A model generated the notes under the pieces. That model was given only the letters and a program-made list of their open reading frames with translations, had not been told where the DNA came from and ran no database searches. A stretch of 38,736 nucleotides of DNA, from assembly GCA_019634195.1 (NCBI GenBank), contig JAHQVV010000094.1:1-38736 (forward strand). The letters run 5' to 3'. Position numbers and translations under genes: made by a program. This document shows, one piece after another, positions 511-9,602 of this stretch (within the stretch, counting starts at the first letter, position 1; each line of letters begins with the position of its first letter). The DNA comes from Phycisphaeraceae bacterium. Its GTDB lineage: Bacteria; Planctomycetota; Phycisphaerae; Phycisphaerales; Phycisphaeraceae.

Positions 511-1509
511 ATGACAGGGCAAGAGCTCCGAAAGCAGTTCGCTGTCGTATCTTCCTGGCGTGGCGGGCTGGATTTGCTGTGGCATTGGGCCGCGATCCTG
601 GGCCTGGTGTGGGCCGCCAGCGCGGTCGGGCACTGGCTCGGTTTTGTGCTGGCCGCGGTGCTCGTCGGCGGCCTGCAGCACGGGCTGATTAATCTTGCGC
701 ACGAGGCTTGGCACCGGCTGTGCTTCAAAAGTAAGCGGGTCAACGACTTTGTCGGCGGCTGGTTTTATTGCTACGCGGCCGGGATGCCTTATTACCACGA
801 CCGCAACCGGCACTGGGCCCACCACCGTCTGGTCGGGCACCACGATGACCCGGATTGGATCAACTATTGCAATGAGGGCCGGGTGCCACTCGCCCGTTTG
901 ATGTTGTTTCTGATCGGCCGGCTGCTGGGGGGGCAGTTGGTGTTGACCGCGTACAGCCTCTTGTTCCGTCGCGAGGCGCGCATCTCGGTTGTGTCGGGCA
1001 CATCAAAAAAAGGCTTGCCCTCGTCTTCTGCGGAGTGGGGGCGTGTGGTAGTGTGCCAGGCCGTGTTGTTTGGCGTGTTCGCTGCGATTGGGCCGTGGTG
1101 GTCTTACTTCGTGCTTTGGGTGTGGCCGCTAGCTAGTTTTGCGAGCTTGTTCATCGCGGTGCGTGCGTATGTTGAGCATGCAGCGGAAGATGACGCGACG
1201 ACCGAAGAACGTCTTTATGATTTTTCGCCGAGCACGGTCGAGGCGTTTTTTATCTCGCCGTGTCACTTCAATTACCACGCGTTGCATCACGCCTATCCCA
1301 ATGTCCCGCACTATCGGCTGAGGCGTTTTAAGCGGGCGATGTGCGAGCGCGGCCTAGCGTACCCGGGTCGGGACATGGGGGGCTACCTGTCGTTTCTGAT
1401 ACACGAGGCGTGGGGTATCGCAGCGGCCCGCACACCTAAGAAAGCAACCCCACATGCAGCAAGCCGCCCCGAGTCCGATGACAAGCCAGCTACCCGGCAG
1501 GCCGCCTGA
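511..1509 (+). CDS. Fatty acid desaturase-like membrane di-iron protein A
   Basis: This 332-residue membrane protein belongs to the fatty acid desaturase / hydroxylase superfamily, whose members use a di-iron centre to desaturate or hydroxylate lipid chains. The three histidine boxes are visible: HEAWH at 64-68, HWAHH at 101-105 and NYHALHH at 254-260, plus an extra EH at 222-223. Hydrophobic segments lie at about 22-58 and 178-218, which puts the histidines on the cytoplasmic face. The ATG has a TGAGG site 8 bases upstream. It is the first gene of a seven-gene unit and overlaps the next gene. A paralogue lies at 4042. The substrate cannot be told from sequence: an acyl chain, sphingoid base or polyprenyl chain are all possible. 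The C-terminal 30 residues are polar and low in complexity. Confidence 0.85.
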   Translation: MTGQELRKQFAVVSSWRGGLDLLWHWAAILGLVWAASAVGHWLGFVLAAVLVGGLQHGLINLAHEAWHRLCFKSKRVNDFVGGWFYCYAAGMPYYHDRNRHWAHHRLVGHHDDPDWINYCNEGRVPLARLMLFLIGRLLGGQLVLTAYSLLFRREARISVVSGTSKKGLPSSSAEWGRVVVCQAVLFGVFAAIGPWWSYFVLWVWPLASFASLFIAVRAYVEHAAEDDATTEERLYDFSPSTVEAFFISPCHFNYHALHHAYPNVPHYRLRRFKRAMCERGLAYPGRDMGGYLSFLIHEAWGIAAARTPKKATPHAASRPESDDKPATRQAA

Positions 1510-2545
1510 GCAGGGCGCTAGTGAAGCCTGTGTCCCCCCTCTGATCTCGGTGATCTGTGACGGCTGCGGCGCGGACAAAGCCGATGTGCTTGCGGAGATT
1601 GATGCCGACTACGAGTATCTCGGCGTGATTGAGGACGCCTATGCGCTGCGTCGATTCCGCTACGTCGGCTGCCGCGAATGCGGGCTTATCTATCAGAACC
1701 CGCGCCCGAGTGATCAGGAGATTTTTCACTACTACCCCGATGTGTACGGGTGTTTTGCCCAATGCCCCCCGCCGGGCCGGATGATGGGGCTGCTGTACAA
1801 AGTCATGGTGTGGTTGAAGCGGCGTGAGCTGATGCCTTTGCTGCCAGACGATGGGGTGCTGCTAGATTTTGGTTGTGGTAACGGTCACTGGCTCCAGGCG
1901 TTTAAGCCTCATATAAAGCCCACGCAGCGGCTGGTGGGGGTTGATCCCTGCCAAAAGCCCATCGATCAACTCCGCGAGTTCGGCGTCGAAGCGTATGTCG
2001 GTGATGAGCACAACATCGGTGAGGTGGTCGGCGAGCAGAGTGTCGACCTGATCTTGTTGAACCACGTCATCGAGCATGTCCCGGACCCACGGCGTCTGCT
2101 GCGGCGTCTTCGGTCGGTCCTCAAGCCCGGTGGGCGGATCCTGGGGGTGACCCCGAATGTCGCGGCTTGGGATCGGAAGCTATTCGGCAAGTATTGGGCC
2201 GGTTGGCATGCGCCGCGCCATTTCATCCTGTTTGATGAGTCATCGCTTCGGCGTTACGCCTCGGATGCGGGGCTGGAGTTGGTTGATTGTCGCTACGAGT
2301 TTGAGGGTGCCAACCACTGGTCGGTCAGCGCCCACAGTTGGCTGGCTCAAAAATTAGGTTGGCGGGCCAGCCCCGGGCGGTACAGGATGGCCTTGTATCC
2401 CTTGCTCCTGTTGCCGGCCCTGCCGGTCACGCTGGTTCAAAAACTCTTTAGCAAGCCCAGTGTCATGAGTTTTGAGTTGCGCAAGCCGGATGCTGATTCC
2501 CAAGTGGAGCACGGTGTGCCCGGCCGCAGGCCCGATAACCCCTAA
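1454..2545 (+). CDS. Class I SAM-dependent methyltransferase A with zinc-ribbon-like N-terminus
   Basis: A 363-residue methyltransferase. An N-terminal cysteine pair module (CxxC at 35-38 and at 73-76, the second followed by GLIYQNPRP) precedes a Rossmann-fold domain with motif I DFGCGNG at 138-144 and HVIEHVPDP downstream. This arrangement is common in methyltransferases of surface-glycan and lipid clusters. The start is uncertain: the ATG at 1454 overlaps the preceding desaturase by 56 bases, and the ATG at 1478 would still overlap by 32. Its sister at 5076 has the same cysteine spacing and the same post-motif pattern (APRHFILF here, IPRHWNLF there), so the two are clear paralogues. The methyl acceptor is unknown. 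Confidence 0.85.
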   Translation: MQQAAPSPMTSQLPGRPPEQGASEACVPPLISVICDGCGADKADVLAEIDADYEYLGVIEDAYALRRFRYVGCRECGLIYQNPRPSDQEIFHYYPDVYGCFAQCPPPGRMMGLLYKVMVWLKRRELMPLLPDDGVLLDFGCGNGHWLQAFKPHIKPTQRLVGVDPCQKPIDQLREFGVEAYVGDEHNIGEVVGEQSVDLILLNHVIEHVPDPRRLLRRLRSVLKPGGRILGVTPNVAAWDRKLFGKYWAGWHAPRHFILFDESSLRRYASDAGLELVDCRYEFEGANHWSVSAHSWLAQKLGWRASPGRYRMALYPLLLLPALPVTLVQKLFSKPSVMSFELRKPDADSQVEHGVPGRRPDNP

Positions 2546-2632
2546 GAGCCTTTGCAGCCTCGCGATTGTCTTCGTCGATCCCAAGTCTGTTAAACCAGCA
2601 TATTCCAGACTGCCGCAAGCCAGGCGTGATCT

Positions 2633-4045
2633 ATGAACTCTAAGCTCCAGTTGGCCTCAAGCCACGATCCCCCCGCGTCGCGAGGTGTTATGGGCCATCG
2701 GCTTCGCCTTGCACGGTACAGCCCGTGGTTGCTGTCGCTGGTTATAGGGGCTCTGGGGTTGTTGGTCTGGCTTGTATCGCTGAGTTACTACGGAAGCTTC
2801 TATCGTGGTTGGGATGCGCAGCTGTACTACGCCCACATGCGCACGGTCATGATCGACCACGATCTGGACTCTACTAACGAGATCGAGTCGCTGACACCGG
2901 GCAAGCAGGTCTTCGTCGTTGGCAAGACCTGGGGCGGGCTGCCGCGAACGGCTGACGGCCGGATCGTCAACCTCTACACCGTCGGCTCATCGCTGATGGG
3001 CGTGCCTGGCTTCGTCGCGGGGCACATCATCGCGTTGGCGTCTGGTCACGACACGGACGGGTACAGCCGGCCGTATGAATTCGCGGTTACGCTCTGGTAC
3101 GTGCTGCTGGTCGCGGTGGGTTGCGGCGTGTTAGGCTCTGCGATCGCGCCGTGGGTGGGCCCGCGCTCGGCCTGGTTCGCGGTGTTCGCTGTGTTCCTAG
3201 GCACGAACCTTATCTACTATACGGGCGTGCTCCCGATGATGAACCACGGGCCTTCGTTTTTGCTGATGAGTGCGCTTGTTTGGCTGGCGCTACGGCTGTA
3301 TCGCACGCCCGATCGCGTGTGGATGTGGCGGGCGGTGGCAGCGGTCGTGTTCATGCTGGTGCTGGTGCGCCCGACGGACGCGGTGATGATGATCGTGCTG
3401 CTGCCGGCGGCGCTGAAGGTTATCAAGACGGGCTGGCGGCCGAGCGTATCCAACGGCTTGCCGGTTGTGCTCGCGGTGTTTGCCGCTGCGGGGGTGCAGT
3501 TGCTCGTTTGGCGTGCGGTGTATGGACGCTGGGTGCTCAACGGCTATTCGGAATGGGGCAACGGCGCGGGCTTTGATTTCACGAATCCGATGCTGCCGGA
3601 GATTCTGACCTCGGGTCAGGGCGGCGGCTGGCTGTACCACCCGTTGTATGGCGTTGGCTTTGCGGGTCTCATCGTGGCGTGCTGCCTAGTGCGTGGCAGG
3701 GAGCGTGGTGTCTGGCTCGCGTTGGCCGCTGGTGTCGTGCTGCACATCGGGCTGTACAGCTACTGGGTCAGCTGGGACTCGGGTGACAGTTTCGGCAATC
3801 GCATCTTCATCAATTCAGCCCCGCTGGCCGCGTTTGGATTGGCGTATCTGTTGCACCTGATGCGTGGCCGGGTTGCGGTGATGAGCGGTGCCGTCGTAAT
3901 GGCTTTGTTGATTCTTTCCAATGCGTTGTTGATGGCGTGCTTTGTAAAACAAACGCTGCCGCCGCGCGCGAGTGCCGACCTCCCCTCGCTGATCGAGGCG
4001 CAGTGGCAAATGATTCAACACCCCGGCATGGAGGCGAAGCCGTGA
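2633..4045 (+). CDS. Polytopic membrane protein, GT-C glycosyltransferase-like
   Basis: A 470-residue protein with about ten hydrophobic segments. The first spans about 31-53 and is followed by an acidic loop with WDAQLYY (60-66) and DHDLD further on. An aspartate in the first outer loop after helix 1 is the hallmark of GT-C enzymes, which transfer sugars from polyprenyl-phosphate carriers on the outer face of the membrane. A large loop follows, then alternating helices to the C-terminus. I call it GT-C-like on topology and that loop only. The start at 2633 is the first ATG after an 87-base gap with no other feature; a second in-frame ATG is at 2690. Its stop overlaps the GTG start of the next gene, so the two are translationally coupled. 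Confidence 0.6.
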   Translation: MNSKLQLASSHDPPASRGVMGHRLRLARYSPWLLSLVIGALGLLVWLVSLSYYGSFYRGWDAQLYYAHMRTVMIDHDLDSTNEIESLTPGKQVFVVGKTWGGLPRTADGRIVNLYTVGSSLMGVPGFVAGHIIALASGHDTDGYSRPYEFAVTLWYVLLVAVGCGVLGSAIAPWVGPRSAWFAVFAVFLGTNLIYYTGVLPMMNHGPSFLLMSALVWLALRLYRTPDRVWMWRAVAAVVFMLVLVRPTDAVMMIVLLPAALKVIKTGWRPSVSNGLPVVLAVFAAAGVQLLVWRAVYGRWVLNGYSEWGNGAGFDFTNPMLPEILTSGQGGGWLYHPLYGVGFAGLIVACCLVRGRERGVWLALAAGVVLHIGLYSYWVSWDSGDSFGNRIFINSAPLAAFGLAYLLHLMRGRVAVMSGAVVMALLILSNALLMACFVKQTLPPRASADLPSLIEAQWQMIQHPGMEAKP

Positions 4046-5079
4046 GTCAGGCATTGCCACACATGCAAGGTGTCGACCGCCGTAATAGCCAGGCGGCTTA
4101 TGCGCGTCTGCTCTTGCCACAGCGGGTGAAAGAACTTAGCCGGCGTTCGGCGATGCGCCCGGTGCTGGATACCGCGGCATGCTGGCTGCTGATCGCTTCG
4201 GCATGGGTGGCGGTGGCGTGGCAGCCGGTCTGGTGGGTGGTGCTGCCCGCCTTCGCGGTCATCGGCAACCGCTACTACGCGTTGTTTATCATCGGGCACG
4301 ACGCGCTGCACCGCCGGCTGTTTGAACGCCGTAAGCTCAACGACCGTTTTGCCGATCTGTTCATTTTCGCGCCGATCGGCGCGATCACCCGGCTCAACAA
4401 CCGCAACCACCTGCTGCACCATGCTCACCTGGCGACCGACCGCGACCCAGACCATCACAAATACGCCTGCTTCGGGAAGGCCGGGCTGGCCCCCTTGCTC
4501 GGTTTCCTGACCGGGCTGACCAGTGTGGCGCGTTCTGCTGCCAATGTGTTTCTGCGTCGAAAAAGCGATGCGAAAGATATGTCTTCACGCGATGGCTACC
4601 GGCTGGCGGATGTGCTGATCCTTGGCGCGTGGCAGGGCGGCCTGATCGCAGGGCTCACGCTGGCGATCGGCTGGTGGGCTTACCCGGTGCTCTGGCTCGC
4701 CCCTGTGTATGTCTTCGCCATCCTCGCAGACAACCTGCGCAGCTTCTGCGAGCACTCGCACACCGAGGCCGATCACGTTGCGGACGAGCACCGGTTGATC
4801 ACGTACCACAGCCCGGCGTTGGAGCGTTGCCTGGTCGCGCCGATGTCGATGAACTATCACACCGCGCACCACCTTTGGCCGACGATCCCGTACTACCGCC
4901 TGCGTCAGGCAGATACGGAGTTGATCGCCGCCGCAGGGCAGGGCACGGACATGGTCTGGCGGCGCAGCTATGTGGGCTACCTCTGGCGGTACATGCGTTC
5001 ACTGCCGATCGATGGCTGTGATAAGCCGGCCCATCAGGCCATGCCGCCGGCGGAGACGCTGCGAAGGAGGGCGGCATGA
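4042..5079 (+). CDS. Fatty acid desaturase-like membrane di-iron protein B
   Basis: A second desaturase/hydroxylase-family enzyme, 345 residues from the GTG start. Histidine boxes are HDALH at 86-90, HLLHH at 123-127 followed by a histidine-rich DRDPDHHKY stretch, and NYHTAHH near the C-terminal third. FCEHSH adds further ligands. The reading frame is open further upstream to an ATG at 3937, but the GTG at 4042 is preferred: it overlaps the previous stop as GTGA and has GGAGG about 8 bases upstream. The protein is a diverged paralogue of the desaturase at 511. In the operon it is followed immediately by its own methyltransferase, repeating the desaturase plus methyltransferase pairing. Substrate unknown; hydroxylation is as likely as desaturation. 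Confidence 0.85.
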   Translation: MSQALPHMQGVDRRNSQAAYARLLLPQRVKELSRRSAMRPVLDTAACWLLIASAWVAVAWQPVWWVVLPAFAVIGNRYYALFIIGHDALHRRLFERRKLNDRFADLFIFAPIGAITRLNNRNHLLHHAHLATDRDPDHHKYACFGKAGLAPLLGFLTGLTSVARSAANVFLRRKSDAKDMSSRDGYRLADVLILGAWQGGLIAGLTLAIGWWAYPVLWLAPVYVFAILADNLRSFCEHSHTEADHVADEHRLITYHSPALERCLVAPMSMNYHTAHHLWPTIPYYRLRQADTELIAAAGQGTDMVWRRSYVGYLWRYMRSLPIDGCDKPAHQAMPPAETLRRRAA

Positions 5080-6122
5080 GTGCCCACCCGCGGATGATTG
5101 ATGTCGGGGTTGATCCGCAGGATCAAGATCGTGGCATGCCCAAAGGCTGGGAGAACACTGATGCGCCGATGATCCAGACCACGGCGGTCCCGGCGTGTCC
5201 GGTGTGTCAGTCGCAGGCTGGCTCCGGCTATGCGCAAGGCTACGACTACGAACTGGAAACCTGCCGGAATCGCTGGGGGTTTGTCCACTGCGACGACTGC
5301 TCGCACGTCTGGCTTAACCCCCGTCCTGCGGTCGAGACGCTGTCTACGATCTACCCGCCCAGCTACTACGCTTACAACTACGATGCGCAGGTCAGCCCGA
5401 TCGCGGTGAAGGCCAAGCAGTGGATCGACCGCATGAAGATGGCCGGCATCCGTAAAGCGATGCCTGCCCCCGCCAAGAGCTTTGTAGATATCGGCTGCGG
5501 CAACGGGCGGCTGCTCCAGGCGATGCATCGCCTGGGGGTTTGCAGGCAGCAGTGCTATGGGCTCGAGTTGGATCAGGGTGTTGTCGACTCGTTATGCGAG
5601 CAAGGGTTTTCGGCGCATTGCGAGCGTGTCGAAGACTGCACGCAGATCGCCGATGGCAGCATCGACCTGGCCACCATGTTTCACGTGATCGAACACGTTG
5701 ATGACCCCGGCGCCGTGGTGAGCCGGGTAGCGCGTTGGCTATCGGAGGATGGGGTTTTCGCGCTGGAGACGCCGAATGTCCAGAGCCTGGACGCCAGGCT
5801 GGGTCGCAAGAGGTTCTGGGGCGGCTACCACATCCCCAGGCACTGGAACCTCTTTACCCCCAAGTCGATCACGCAGCTGCTTGAGGACAACGGCATGGAG
5901 GTAGTCGACATCCGGTACCAGAGCGGCCACTCGTTCTGGATCTATAGCCTGCATCACCGCCTGCGGTACGGCACGCCGCGGATGCCGCGGTTAGCACGCT
6001 GGTGCAACCCTTTCCGCAACCTTGCCCTTCTCGCGTTGGTGACCGCCTTTGACCGGCTGCGCGTGATGATTGGGATGAAGACCTCCGCGATGCTCGTCAT
6101 CGCTCGCAAACGCCAAGACTGA
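5076..6122 (+). CDS. Class I SAM-dependent methyltransferase B with zinc-ribbon-like N-terminus
   Basis: A 348-residue paralogue of the methyltransferase at 1454. CxxC pairs at 41-44 and 72-75 form the N-terminal module, followed by WLNPRP and a tyrosine-rich stretch near 94-102. Motif I is DIGCGNG at 138-144, and MFHVIEHVDDP marks the later acidic motif. The ATG overlaps the preceding stop as ATGA and has a strong AAGGAGG site about 5 bases upstream, so it is translationally coupled to desaturase B. Residues 1-35 lack family features and may be a lineage-specific extension. The methyl acceptor is unknown; the context points to a lipid or a lipid-linked sugar. Confidence 0.87.
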   Translation: MSAHPRMIDVGVDPQDQDRGMPKGWENTDAPMIQTTAVPACPVCQSQAGSGYAQGYDYELETCRNRWGFVHCDDCSHVWLNPRPAVETLSTIYPPSYYAYNYDAQVSPIAVKAKQWIDRMKMAGIRKAMPAPAKSFVDIGCGNGRLLQAMHRLGVCRQQCYGLELDQGVVDSLCEQGFSAHCERVEDCTQIADGSIDLATMFHVIEHVDDPGAVVSRVARWLSEDGVFALETPNVQSLDARLGRKRFWGGYHIPRHWNLFTPKSITQLLEDNGMEVVDIRYQSGHSFWIYSLHHRLRYGTPRMPRLARWCNPFRNLALLALVTAFDRLRVMIGMKTSAMLVIARKRQD

Positions 6123-6140
6123 ACCGACCGGAACGCGACT

Positions 6141-7406
6141 ATGCAAGACCAACAAGCCATCGAACTGACCGTTGTCATGCCCTGCCTCAACGAGGCGGAC
6201 ACGCTGGCGACCTGTATCCGAAAAGCCTGGAAGGGCATGGGCGAGGCGAATGTGGTCGGCGAGGTGGTGGTCGCGGACAACGGGTCGACCGACGGCTCGA
6301 TCCAGATCGCTCAGAGCGAGGGGGCCCGCATCGTACACGTGCCACGCAAGGGCTATGGTTACGCACTACAGGCGGGGATTTCGTCGGCCAAGGGCAAGTA
6401 CGTGCTCATGGGCGATGCGGACGACAGCTACGACTTCCTCGAAATCCCGAAGTTCATTGAGAAGCTCCGTCAGGGCCATCAGCTGGTGCAGGGCTGCCGC
6501 CTGCCGTCGGGCGGCGGGACGGTGGCCAAGGGCGCGATGCCGTTCTCGCACCGCTGGTTCGGCAACCCGATGTTTTCGCTCATGGTGCGGAAGATGTACT
6601 GGTCGCCGATCCATGATGTGTACTGCGGCATGCGTGGGTTTACCCGAGAGTTCTATGCCAGGAACACGCCGGTCGCGGGGGGGATGGAGTTTGCGACTGA
6701 GATGATCATCCGCGCATCGCTGCACGGCGAGGATACCGCGGAAGTGCCGATCACCCTGCACCCGGATGGCCGCAAGGCCCATGCGCCGCACCTTCGGACG
6801 ATGCGTGATGGCTGGCGGACCCTGCGCTTCTTCATGCTGCGGAGCCCGCGTTACCTGTTCTTCCGGCCCGGCGTGGTGATCGCGCTCGTCGGGCTGATGT
6901 TCATGCTCGCGGGCAGCTTCAACTGGACCGTCGGGCCGATGACCTTTGACCTGCACACGATGCTCGTGGGGGCGCTGGCTTTCCTGCTGGGGGTGCAGGC
7001 GATGCAGTTCGGGGTCTTTGCGAAGCTGCTGGCGATTGCGGAGGGTTTTTCGCCGGAGGATACGCGGCTGAGCCGTTGGCTCTCGTCGATCACGCTCGAG
7101 CGTGGGCTGCTGCTTGGCGGCGGGGCGGCTTTGATCGGCTTGACCTGCATCGGTGTTCCGTCGTATCAGTGGGCGTCGGGGGGGTTCTCCTCTCTGGACT
7201 ACGGCGTGGCGATGCGCTGGGTCATCCCGGGTGTCGTGCTTGTCGCGGCCGGGGTCCAGTGCATGCTCGGGCGGTGCTTCGCGGGGGCGCTTGAACTGCT
7301 CGCGGAGCGCAGCCTGAATATGGGGGCGGCACCGACCGAACCCGAGGCGCCGCTGCAAGCGGCGGTCACGACCACGCCCGCAGCACCGATCCGGAAAGCC
7401 GCATGA
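6141..7406 (+). CDS. Family 2 glycosyltransferase with C-terminal membrane segments
   Basis: A 421-residue GT2 enzyme of the dolichyl-phosphate-mannose-synthase-like type. The N-terminal catalytic domain shows VVMPCLNEAD, DNGST at 46-50 and the metal/nucleotide-sugar motif GDADDSYDF starting at 91. Four hydrophobic helices follow between about 245 and 385. Such enzymes usually move a sugar from a nucleotide donor onto a polyprenyl-phosphate carrier on the cytoplasmic face. That fits as the first step feeding the GT-C-like protein encoded at 2633, although this pairing is inferred. It starts 18 bases after the previous stop and overlaps the next gene by 4 bases. The C-terminal tail is alanine- and threonine-rich and unconserved in appearance. 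Confidence 0.88.
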   Translation: MQDQQAIELTVVMPCLNEADTLATCIRKAWKGMGEANVVGEVVVADNGSTDGSIQIAQSEGARIVHVPRKGYGYALQAGISSAKGKYVLMGDADDSYDFLEIPKFIEKLRQGHQLVQGCRLPSGGGTVAKGAMPFSHRWFGNPMFSLMVRKMYWSPIHDVYCGMRGFTREFYARNTPVAGGMEFATEMIIRASLHGEDTAEVPITLHPDGRKAHAPHLRTMRDGWRTLRFFMLRSPRYLFFRPGVVIALVGLMFMLAGSFNWTVGPMTFDLHTMLVGALAFLLGVQAMQFGVFAKLLAIAEGFSPEDTRLSRWLSSITLERGLLLGGGAALIGLTCIGVPSYQWASGGFSSLDYGVAMRWVIPGVVLVAAGVQCMLGRCFAGALELLAERSLNMGAAPTEPEAPLQAAVTTTPAAPIRKAA

Positions 7407-8110
7407 CCAGCCTGACTACGATCCACACCTCCGAACGCTGCTGCAACGAGACATGGGAGCAGGCCTACGCCCGGTTCGAGACCCCCGAGCAGGAGGTCGA
7501 CAAGTTCCTGCGTCGCTTCGATTGGTTCGGCGCGAAGGATTGGCCCAAAGACGCCGCGATTGTCGAACTGTTCTGCGGCCGGGGTAACGGGCTCGTCGCG
7601 CTTTCCCAGCTGGGCTTTACGAACCTGTCCGGGGTGGACCTCTCGGCAGACCTGCTTGGTCAGTACACAGGCGATGCGCAGACCTATGTCTGCGATGCGC
7701 GCGACCTTTCATTGGAGACCGCGAGTCAGGATATTGCGGTTGTCCAGGGCGGCGTGCATCACCTGCCGGAGTTGCCAGCAGATCTGGAGAAAAGTATTGA
7801 GGAGGCGGCGCGCGTGCTTAGGCCCGGCGGCAAGTTGGTGATGGTCGAGCCCTGGGATACGCCGTTTCTGCGAGCGGTGCATGCGGCGTCGGCCAACGCG
7901 TTGCTGCGTCGGCTCTGGGGCAAGCTGGATGCCTTCCAGGTGCTCTACGAGAACGAACGACAGACCTACGACAACTGGCTGTCACGGCCCGTTGAGGTGC
8001 TTGGCGTCATCGAGAAGTACTTCCACATCGAGCGGCAACGCCAGGCTTGGGGCAAGCTATTCTGCCTAGCCCGCCGCCGCGAATCCGCGTCGCTCGCCAA
8101 AGCGACATAG
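7403..8110 (+). CDS. SAM-dependent methyltransferase C (type 11)
   Basis: A 235-residue class I methyltransferase without the cysteine module of its two operon relatives. Motif I reads VELFCGRGNG, then GVDLSADLL for the acidic ribose-binding loop, and VLRPGGKLVMVEPW for the later strand. It starts with ATG overlapping the GT2 stop (ATGA). As the last gene of the unit it is followed by a short hairpin and then a terminator at 8194. The overall look resembles small-molecule or quinone/lipid methyltransferases, but the acceptor is not identifiable. Confidence 0.85.
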   Translation: MTSLTTIHTSERCCNETWEQAYARFETPEQEVDKFLRRFDWFGAKDWPKDAAIVELFCGRGNGLVALSQLGFTNLSGVDLSADLLGQYTGDAQTYVCDARDLSLETASQDIAVVQGGVHHLPELPADLEKSIEEAARVLRPGGKLVMVEPWDTPFLRAVHAASANALLRRLWGKLDAFQVLYENERQTYDNWLSRPVEVLGVIEKYFHIERQRQAWGKLFCLARRRESASLAKAT

Positions 8111-8193
8111 CCAGCCCTGGCGGAATACGGCTGCGAGATGTGATCGCCATCTCACCGCTGGGTGGTCTGGTAAGGCCAAATGCATACAATTCC

Positions 8194-8257: not shown

Positions 8258-8902
8258 ATGCAGGGTTGGCCTTGGAAGAAACAGGCGCAGCCGGGCGATG
8301 CGTCCTGGCGTCAGAGGAAGGCCCACCGCTACGGCGGTGAGACAGTCCGCTGCGCCTTGGGAGAGGTTGCGGATATCTCGGCGTCGGGGATGCGCGTGCT
8401 CTGCGACGGCAAGCCCCCGGTGAAGCAGGGCGGGGCCATCCCGGTCCGCCTCAAGTTCAGCGACGGGTCGCTGCAGGTGGGCACGCAGGTCCGGTGGGTT
8501 AAGCGGCGGGGGCTGAAGCGGCACGAGATCGGCTTGCAGTTCGTCCAGCTCAAACCAGGCGTCGAGAAGGTGCTTGAGGCCATCGCTCGCTTCGGTATGG
8601 CTGAGGCGGCTAAGCATTTGGATGAAGATCGTGGTCGCGATCAATCTGAGCCTCGTAAGAAACGGAAGGTGGAGAAGCCTCGGGCCGAGGTCGAACTGCC
8701 TAACTACTACAAGACGCTCGAGCTGGACCCGGAAGCGACAGCCGCCGAGATCAAAGCCAGCTATCGGCGTTTGGCAACGATGTACCACCCCGACCGGAAT
8801 GATTCCGCAGAGGCGCTCAAGCGCTTCGAGGACATTAACGAGGCGTACCACGTGCTCCGCGACGCGCAGCGACGCAGTTCCTATGGCCGTATGGCCGGTT
8901 GA
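8258..8902 (+). CDS. PilZ-DnaJ fusion protein
   Basis: A 214-residue protein from the ATG at 8258; a longer frame from 8180 would read through the terminator and is rejected. Residues 15-110 form a PilZ domain with both cyclic-di-GMP-binding motifs: RKAHR (20-24, RxxxR) and DISASG (39-44, DxSxxG). A charged linker rich in K and R (125-145) leads to a J domain at about 149-210, with the HPD tripeptide at 177-179 that stimulates Hsp70 ATPase activity. There is no signal peptide or membrane helix, so it is cytosolic. The fusion suggests that c-di-GMP could direct or gate a DnaK client interaction; this is inferred. Genes for DnaK or c-di-GMP enzymes are not in the window. Confidence 0.87.
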   Translation: MQGWPWKKQAQPGDASWRQRKAHRYGGETVRCALGEVADISASGMRVLCDGKPPVKQGGAIPVRLKFSDGSLQVGTQVRWVKRRGLKRHEIGLQFVQLKPGVEKVLEAIARFGMAEAAKHLDEDRGRDQSEPRKKRKVEKPRAEVELPNYYKTLELDPEATAAEIKASYRRLATMYHPDRNDSAEALKRFEDINEAYHVLRDAQRRSSYGRMAG

Positions 8903-8957: not shown

Positions 8958-9602
8958 ATGAAACATGCTCTCACGCTTCTGCTGCTGCTATTCCTCGTCA
9001 CCGGCTGCTGCAGCACGCCCGTCAAGAAGACCCCGCCCGTCGAGCTCCTGCCGGGCAATATGACCCAGTGGCAGACGATCAATTTCGGCGGCGAGGGCGA
9101 TGTCTATTTCAGAGAAGGCACGCTCAACCTCGACTACGGCAACCCACTGACTGGCGTCACGTATCAAGGCGACCTGGCTAGACTCCTTGGCGAGGCCAAA
9201 GAGAACTACGCGATCACCATGCAGGCTCAACGTGTTGAGGGCGTGGATATGTTCCTCGGGGTAACGTTCCCGGTGGGTAACGAAGGGCACGTGAGCCTCG
9301 TGCTCGGCGGCTGGGCCGGGGCAATCACGGGCCTGTCGAACCTCGATGGACTCAACGCCTCGGAGAATGCAACCACGCAGTACCATGCCTTCGAAGACAA
9401 GCAGTGGTACAAGGTCAAGATCCTCGTCACCAAAAACAAGATCCAGTGCTGGCTCGACAGCACGCAACTCGTGGATGTGAAGCGAGCCGACTACGAGAAG
9501 TACGACACGCATGGCGCGGTGGTCGATACCAAGCCTTTGGGTCTGTTCAGCTACGGCACGTGGGGCAAGGTTCGGGACATGAAGGTGTGGCGGTTAAAGT
9601 AG
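8958..9602 (+). CDS. Lipoprotein with a DUF1080/LamG-like domain
   Basis: A 214-residue lipoprotein. The signal peptide ends in the lipobox LVTGC with cysteine 17 as the lipidation site, and a second cysteine follows. The rest looks like a beta-sandwich of the DUF1080 (3-keto-disaccharide hydrolase) or concanavalin-like type, with W-rich strands such as QWYKVKILV and a closing GKVRDMKVWRL. Such domains bind or cleave sugars, but no catalytic residues can be pointed out, so function stays open. The frame is open upstream to 8574, but that part only overlaps the PilZ-DnaJ gene out of frame; the ATG at 8958 begins the signal peptide. The TAG stop lies within the palindromic repeat at 9599. Confidence 0.75.
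   Translation: MKHALTLLLLLFLVTGCCSTPVKKTPPVELLPGNMTQWQTINFGGEGDVYFREGTLNLDYGNPLTGVTYQGDLARLLGEAKENYAITMQAQRVEGVDMFLGVTFPVGNEGHVSLVLGGWAGAITGLSNLDGLNASENATTQYHAFEDKQWYKVKILVTKNKIQCWLDSTQLVDVKRADYEKYDTHGAVVDTKPLGLFSYGTWGKVRDMKVWRLK

Follow-up and report, generated by a model that had tools for sequence, protein, structure and literature searches.

A conserved fusion of a PilZ and a J domain in Phycisphaerales with a possible link between c-di-GMP and Hsp70

In the window analyzed here, a stretch of 38,736 nucleotides from a Phycisphaeraceae bacterium (genome G000, fusion contig C82), one short gene encodes a PilZ domain followed by a J domain. The locus raises the question of whether this protein makes the work of the Hsp70 chaperone DnaK dependent on the second messenger cyclic di-GMP (c-di-GMP). 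The fusion itself is real and conserved, though patchy in distribution. The single open reading frame (ORF), the two domains with both motif sets, their conservation and the fold matches were observed directly, as were DnaK and GGDEF genes in tested carriers. Chances are about even, in our estimate, that the protein is a minimal J-domain protein of class C, with a PilZ domain that makes the action of DnaK on a chosen client c-di-GMP-dependent. The more specific proposal of a c-di-GMP-gated Hsp70 co-chaperone, in which the nucleotide would act as a direct switch of DnaK's client or activity, is put forward more tentatively.

The fusion gene and its domains

The gene occupies positions 8258..8902 of the forward strand, on which all its features lie, and consists of a single ORF of 214 amino acids (aa) and a stop codon, with ATG at 8258. 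PilZ (PF07238; E 1.9e-9, 38.2 bits with a cut-off of 22.5, residues 27–109) and the DnaJ domain (E 1.6e-21, 76.6 bits with a cut-off of 27.8, residues 149–209) are the only families passing the Pfam cut-offs, in agreement with the preliminary description, which had reported both domains in one short protein. The PilZ domain (residues 18–113, 8309..8596) is a beta barrel with a C-terminal helix at residues 102–112. It contains the RxxxR motif RKAHR (residues 20–24, 8315..8329) and the DxSxxG motif DISASG (residues 39–44, 8372..8389). The linker (residues 114–146, 8597..8695), where the AlphaFold predicted local distance difference test (pLDDT) score falls below 60 at about residues 121–140, leads to the J domain (residues 147–212, 8696..8893), assigned from Pfam, the AlphaFold model and a fold match. 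Its HPD tripeptide is found at residues 177–179 (8786..8794). All three motifs thus lie at the residues assigned to them earlier, and together they predict c-di-GMP binding and Hsp70 stimulation.

An alternative in-frame start upstream, at 8180, would yield a protein of 240 aa. Loci L043 and L044 align from the methionine at 8258 on, and the L044 frame has no similar sequence upstream; hence the start at 8258 is likelier, and the one at 8180, whose extension is not conserved, was set aside.

The Pfam scan of the 214-aa protein revealed neither a G/F region, a zinc finger nor C-terminal client domains, the features of canonical DnaJ (class A) or CbpA (class B), and the score with the NCBIfam DnaJ model (73.5 bits) is far under its cut-off of 377.2. 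In class-C J-domain proteins, the J domain is carried on an unrelated targeting domain; having no client domains of its own, it acts where the partner domain puts it. The fusion resembles them in combining an HPD-containing J domain, without the DnaJ client domains, with an attached domain that targets it, but here the attached domain is a predicted second-messenger sensor.

Conservation of the fusion within the order

The order sample consisted of 201 genomes including G000. Order-wide matching yielded 43 other genomes with a match spanning both domains, and reading of whole frames supplied L088 (G083) and then L145 and L149 (G183 and G068). Hence, of the 200 genomes other than G000, 46 encode the fusion in one ORF (47 of 201 with G000). 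This is a lower bound, since fusions with long linkers can surface as a PilZ match alone. The other carriers belong to five of the six families: 21 to f1, 20 to f2, three to f6, and one each to f3 and f4. The distribution is patchy, and the majority of genomes in the order sample have no fusion.

An accidental or mis-assembled join of the two domains, or a frame error that makes one protein out of two, can be dismissed as practically nil. The same single-ORF join recurs in the 46 other genomes, and comparison with the nearest relative gave a low nonsynonymous rate (dN 0.20) against a synonymous rate (dS) of 2.26 for the whole gene, where dS is near saturation, and dN 0.11 against dS 1.18 for the PilZ part alone. 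The closest named record is a contig of a Phycisphaera sp. metagenome-assembled genome (L012; 72% identity over residues 1–214), which was also the sole relative found in a separate scan of genome contigs.

In alignment A2, all 41 rows, window included, match both Pfam families (PilZ at E ≤ 0.01). Motifs were compared between the window and 44 relatives, among which aligned rows diverge to 27% identity to the window. Both arginines of RxxxR are kept in 41 relatives and Arg24 in all 44; [D/N]xSxxG is present in 41 and HPD in 42, all three motif sets being intact in 36.

In one PilZ-J protein (L083:7400-8374, + strand, G134), Pfam counts two PilZ stretches, the second lying after the J domain as judged by eye.

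Predicted structure and proposed mechanism

The AlphaFold model consists of a PilZ barrel and a canonical J domain joined by a flexible linker. The PilZ part folds like the c-di-GMP-binding PilZ domains of Alg44 and YcgR (structures 5y6g, 4xrn, 4rt0), and the J part has a fold match to a DnaK-bound J domain. Stand-alone PilZ receptors such as YcgR PilZ and Alg44 share with the fusion the fold and both ligand motifs, whereas the fusion differs in its short inter-motif stretch and in having a J domain as partner. The best 60 of 80 profile matches included no solved PilZ-J structure; each of them overlaps the J part, and several begin some positions ahead of it.

In the mechanism that we propose, the PilZ domain would replace the client-binding part of DnaJ. 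c-di-GMP would bind at the RxxxR/DxSxxG site of the barrel, and the N-terminal arm would close over the ligand. Binding may then alter which client or partner PilZ holds, or the freedom of the J domain, so that the tethered J domain, via its HPD loop, would stimulate ATP hydrolysis by DnaK at that client. Ligand binding, DnaK stimulation, the coupling of the two and the identity of the client are steps that we infer. If the protein is gated in this way, protein quality control or assembly would be coupled to the cellular c-di-GMP state as a direct signalling output; if it is not, the conserved ligand site requires another reason.

Related proteins and published evidence

In Myxococcus xanthus, the PilZ-DnaK chaperones CsdK1 and CsdK2 allow the PilZ protein CdbS to accumulate, probably through stabilization (PMC10313047); the authors call the relevance of c-di-GMP for CsdK2 unknown. 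As described there, these proteins, like the fusion, carry an N-terminal PilZ domain on a part of the Hsp70 machine, and CsdK2 has the full c-di-GMP motif. By the same description PilZ is attached to Hsp70 itself in M. xanthus, whereas here it is attached to the J-domain partner: the Pfam scan found no Hsp70 domain in the 214 aa, and the architecture is therefore not of the CsdK type. Furthermore, CsdK1 is described as having no first half of the motif, while most of the relatives studied here retain both motifs. The fusion may be regarded as a very small form of the question posed by the M. xanthus PilZ-DnaK proteins, with one sensor, a linker and a J domain.

A DnaK or DnaJ domain is mentioned for four of the 24 M. 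xanthus PilZ proteins in a 2021 study (PMC8316039). By this wording, at least one of them joins PilZ to a DnaJ domain as the fusion does; it is known from this domain-survey mention only and is compared by description. All 24 PilZ genes were deleted in that study. Defects in motility or development are assigned there to plpA, pixA, pixB and pkn1, exopolysaccharide is wild-type-like in all 24 deletions, and deletions of the genes containing DnaK or DnaJ domains are reported to have no motility, exopolysaccharide or development defect.

A search of 5.39 million papers, with most subscription journals outside its coverage, found no paper using the phrases PilZ-DnaJ or DnaJ-PilZ; among the papers listed there was no functional study of a PilZ-J protein, and no J-domain protein demonstrated to be under the control of a bacterial nucleotide second messenger; the available parts of PMC9140294, PMC12564702, PMC11985408 and PMC12943098 mention no PilZ-DnaJ protein. 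The preliminary description had called both domains well known and proposed that their fusion would link c-di-GMP to Hsp70 recruitment. Such a fusion is not unprecedented, with PilZ-DnaK proteins CsdK1 and CsdK2 published and PilZ with DnaK or DnaJ mentioned for M. xanthus. PilZ-chaperone fusions and class-C J proteins are already known, and a first sign of the fusion's architecture exists from one other phylum.

c-di-GMP and DnaK genes in carrier genomes

GGDEF genes were found in all 68 genomes tested (20 carriers and 48 non-carriers, a non-carrier being a genome without a full-length match in the order search). Canonical DnaK was present in all ten carriers tested, which is a permissive observation only. 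The window's own genome contains nine GGDEF matches above the cut-off, nine PilZ domains and three J domains, the fusion contributing one PilZ and one J.

The best GGDEF match of G000 (5831-6331 on contig C84; L008, L091) falls in a 797-aa open frame that also has a PilZ match at 7031-7336. The sole strong Hsp70 match in this genome is a divergent protein of 601 aa with an acidic stretch (L133:1390-3195, contig C103); directly after its gene, L133:3199-5079 encodes a protein with leucine-rich-repeat-like matches.

Weighing of c-di-GMP dependence and alternative explanations

Several observations weigh against c-di-GMP-dependent action on DnaK, and some of them bear on alternative explanations. 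An intact ligand motif is insufficient as proof of c-di-GMP binding. In CsdK2, substitution in the motif left the interaction with CdbS unaffected (PMC10313047). At the level of sequence, DxTxxG replaces DxSxxG in three relatives with intact HPD (L080, L084 and L085, all of genus g80), which could change ligand affinity, and Arg20 is missing in three others (L059, L067 and L076), each having an arginine at a neighbouring position.

These observations also count in favour of an explanation in which PilZ serves to dock onto a fixed client or onto another PilZ or GGDEF protein, with or without binding c-di-GMP, the J domain brings DnaK constitutively, and the ligand has no control. Published results point the same way: the client interaction of CsdK2 maps to the DnaK part, its c-di-GMP motif being dispensable (PMC10313047), and PlpA is reported as non-binding despite an intact motif (PMC8316039). 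On the other hand, conservation of the ligand motifs over the 44 divergent relatives is about equal to that of HPD, and a pure docking surface would have no need of ligand arginines. We regard constitutive docking as a rather unlikely explanation, though it is, with autoinhibition of the J domain, one of the two foremost rivals of c-di-GMP dependence.

Further points against c-di-GMP dependence come from the PilZ fold itself. Arg20 adjoins an N-terminal arm that is poorly predicted in the AlphaFold model. In 36 of 45 rows the interval from Arg24 to Asp39 measures 15 residues, and the Pfam PilZ match begins only at profile position 20; because of these two features the strand after RxxxR looks short. 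The spacing between RxxxR and DxSxxG is longer in Alg44. When the PilZ part alone was compared with solved structures, the sequence match to Alg44 was insignificant (E 0.95).

No fixed contact between the domains is predicted either, the predicted template modelling score (pTM) of the model being 0.50. This is relevant to an explanation in which the J domain is autoinhibited and the general DnaK cycle is tuned with no specific client. The FG(F/M) turn with the near-invariant Gly113 right after the PilZ helix and the hydrophobic pattern at residues 143–147 before the J domain are candidate contact sites for such inhibition. However, the linker stretch (residues 115–148) varies from 16 to 93 residues across the 45 aligned rows, and the model contains no confident domain arrangement. 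We consider autoinhibition improbable.

HPD is lost in L078 (G049) and L079 (G055), from two species of one genus (g9), while the PilZ motifs are kept. Their J domains still pass the Pfam DnaJ cut-off, but from their sequences these natural variants are expected not to engage Hsp70. They are what one would look for if the J domain were a structural remnant or an interaction helix bundle, with Hsp70 uninvolved and the function residing in the PilZ part. Since HPD is retained in the other 42 relatives and canonical DnaK was found in every carrier tested, this explanation is very improbable. Together with the DxT-containing proteins, the variants without HPD are ready test cases for the proposed c-di-GMP-dependent action on DnaK.

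The genomes of the carriers also supply points against c-di-GMP dependence. The fusion gene is not essential, given that the majority of genomes in the order sample lack it. By hand-summed counts, carriers were not richer in GGDEF than non-carriers of the same family: the means were 9.0 in eight carriers and 8.8 in 15 non-carriers of f1, and 3.7 in nine carriers and 4.2 in 17 non-carriers of f2, while in f6 the counts were 9, 10 and 12 in carriers and 3 and 11 in non-carriers. In G000, which is 89.6% complete, no canonical DnaK was found, only the divergent Hsp70. The lack is probably an assembly gap, given this completeness and the presence of DnaK in all ten tested carriers.

Range beyond the order and origin

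The A2 profile was searched against 392 genomes of the phylum, 31 of them from the same order; the 361 others comprised ten of the same class and 351 from the remaining phylum. The best candidates per genome (mostly eight) were scored, and matches were listed down to E 3.6e-24. Eight full-length matches were obtained, every one within the order, and none of the matches listed in the 361 other genomes spans both domains. The search for PilZ and DnaJ in one protein, suggested in the preliminary description, thus showed the architecture to recur in its own order, with no such listed match in the rest of the phylum sample. The weakest fusion scored E 4e-55, and the best J-only match 2.5e-32. In the class sample of 248 genomes, all ten matches at E ≤ 1e-30 came from the same order. 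A tblastn search of 72,556 plasmid records (E 1e-12) returned J-domain matches only, in six records, none covering 80%. Outside the phylum, which the genome searches covered, the M. xanthus mention is the sole evidence for the PilZ and DnaJ architecture.

In the phylum search, two J matches, in G288 (61-197) and G472 (59-194), extend farther upstream than the rest; both contain internal stops.

A tree of the PilZ part was built from 47 fusion and 23 stand-alone rows (99 columns) and is weakly resolved. The label of fusion or stand-alone changes twice on it, versus 19.4 times in shuffles. The FG(F/M/Y) turn at residues 112–114, after the PilZ helix, has Gly113 in 43 of 45 fusion rows and another residue in most stand-alone rows. 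By the tree, the fusions may share one origin.

Flagellin and genomic neighbourhood

The preliminary description had further suggested that the chaperone is placed at flagella, pili or secretion machinery. Flagellin was found at E ≤ 0.001 in all 20 carriers, each of which also passes the 1e-15 threshold applied to the non-carriers; of these, 41 of 48 have flagellin. The Fisher p of 0.096 ignores kinship. A link between flagellin and the fusion is neither shown nor excluded. No gene for flagella, pili or secretion was seen adjacent to the fusion, by eye and without a profile scan of the neighbours, in the window or among example sequences of 19 neighbour clusters from the relatives. Neither neighbourhoods nor flagellin counts lend specific support to a flagellar or pilus role, and it was dropped. 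The placement part of the earlier proposal thus found no support, while its c-di-GMP and Hsp70 part was sustained to the extent that the fusion is conserved, its motifs are predictive, and GGDEF and DnaK are present.

Neighbourhoods were compared for 45 loci, at least 3 kb being visible on both sides in 36 of them. No operon partner naming a client was seen in the neighbour clusters of these loci. The largest clusters, fusion aside, cover 9 of the 45 loci, and for this reason the protein looks like a free-standing regulator whose location gives no hint of a client.

In the window, the upstream neighbour (7403-8110) is a methyltransferase by Pfam. Downstream, a small gene at 8958-9602 has a match to 3-keto-disaccharide hydrolase above the Pfam cut-off, and beyond it lies a dapF-like gene, named by eye, on the opposite strand. 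The upstream side is occupied by a co-oriented run (511-8110) whose genes, to judge by eye, may encode a pair of desaturase-like membrane enzymes, methyltransferases and a glycosyltransferase.
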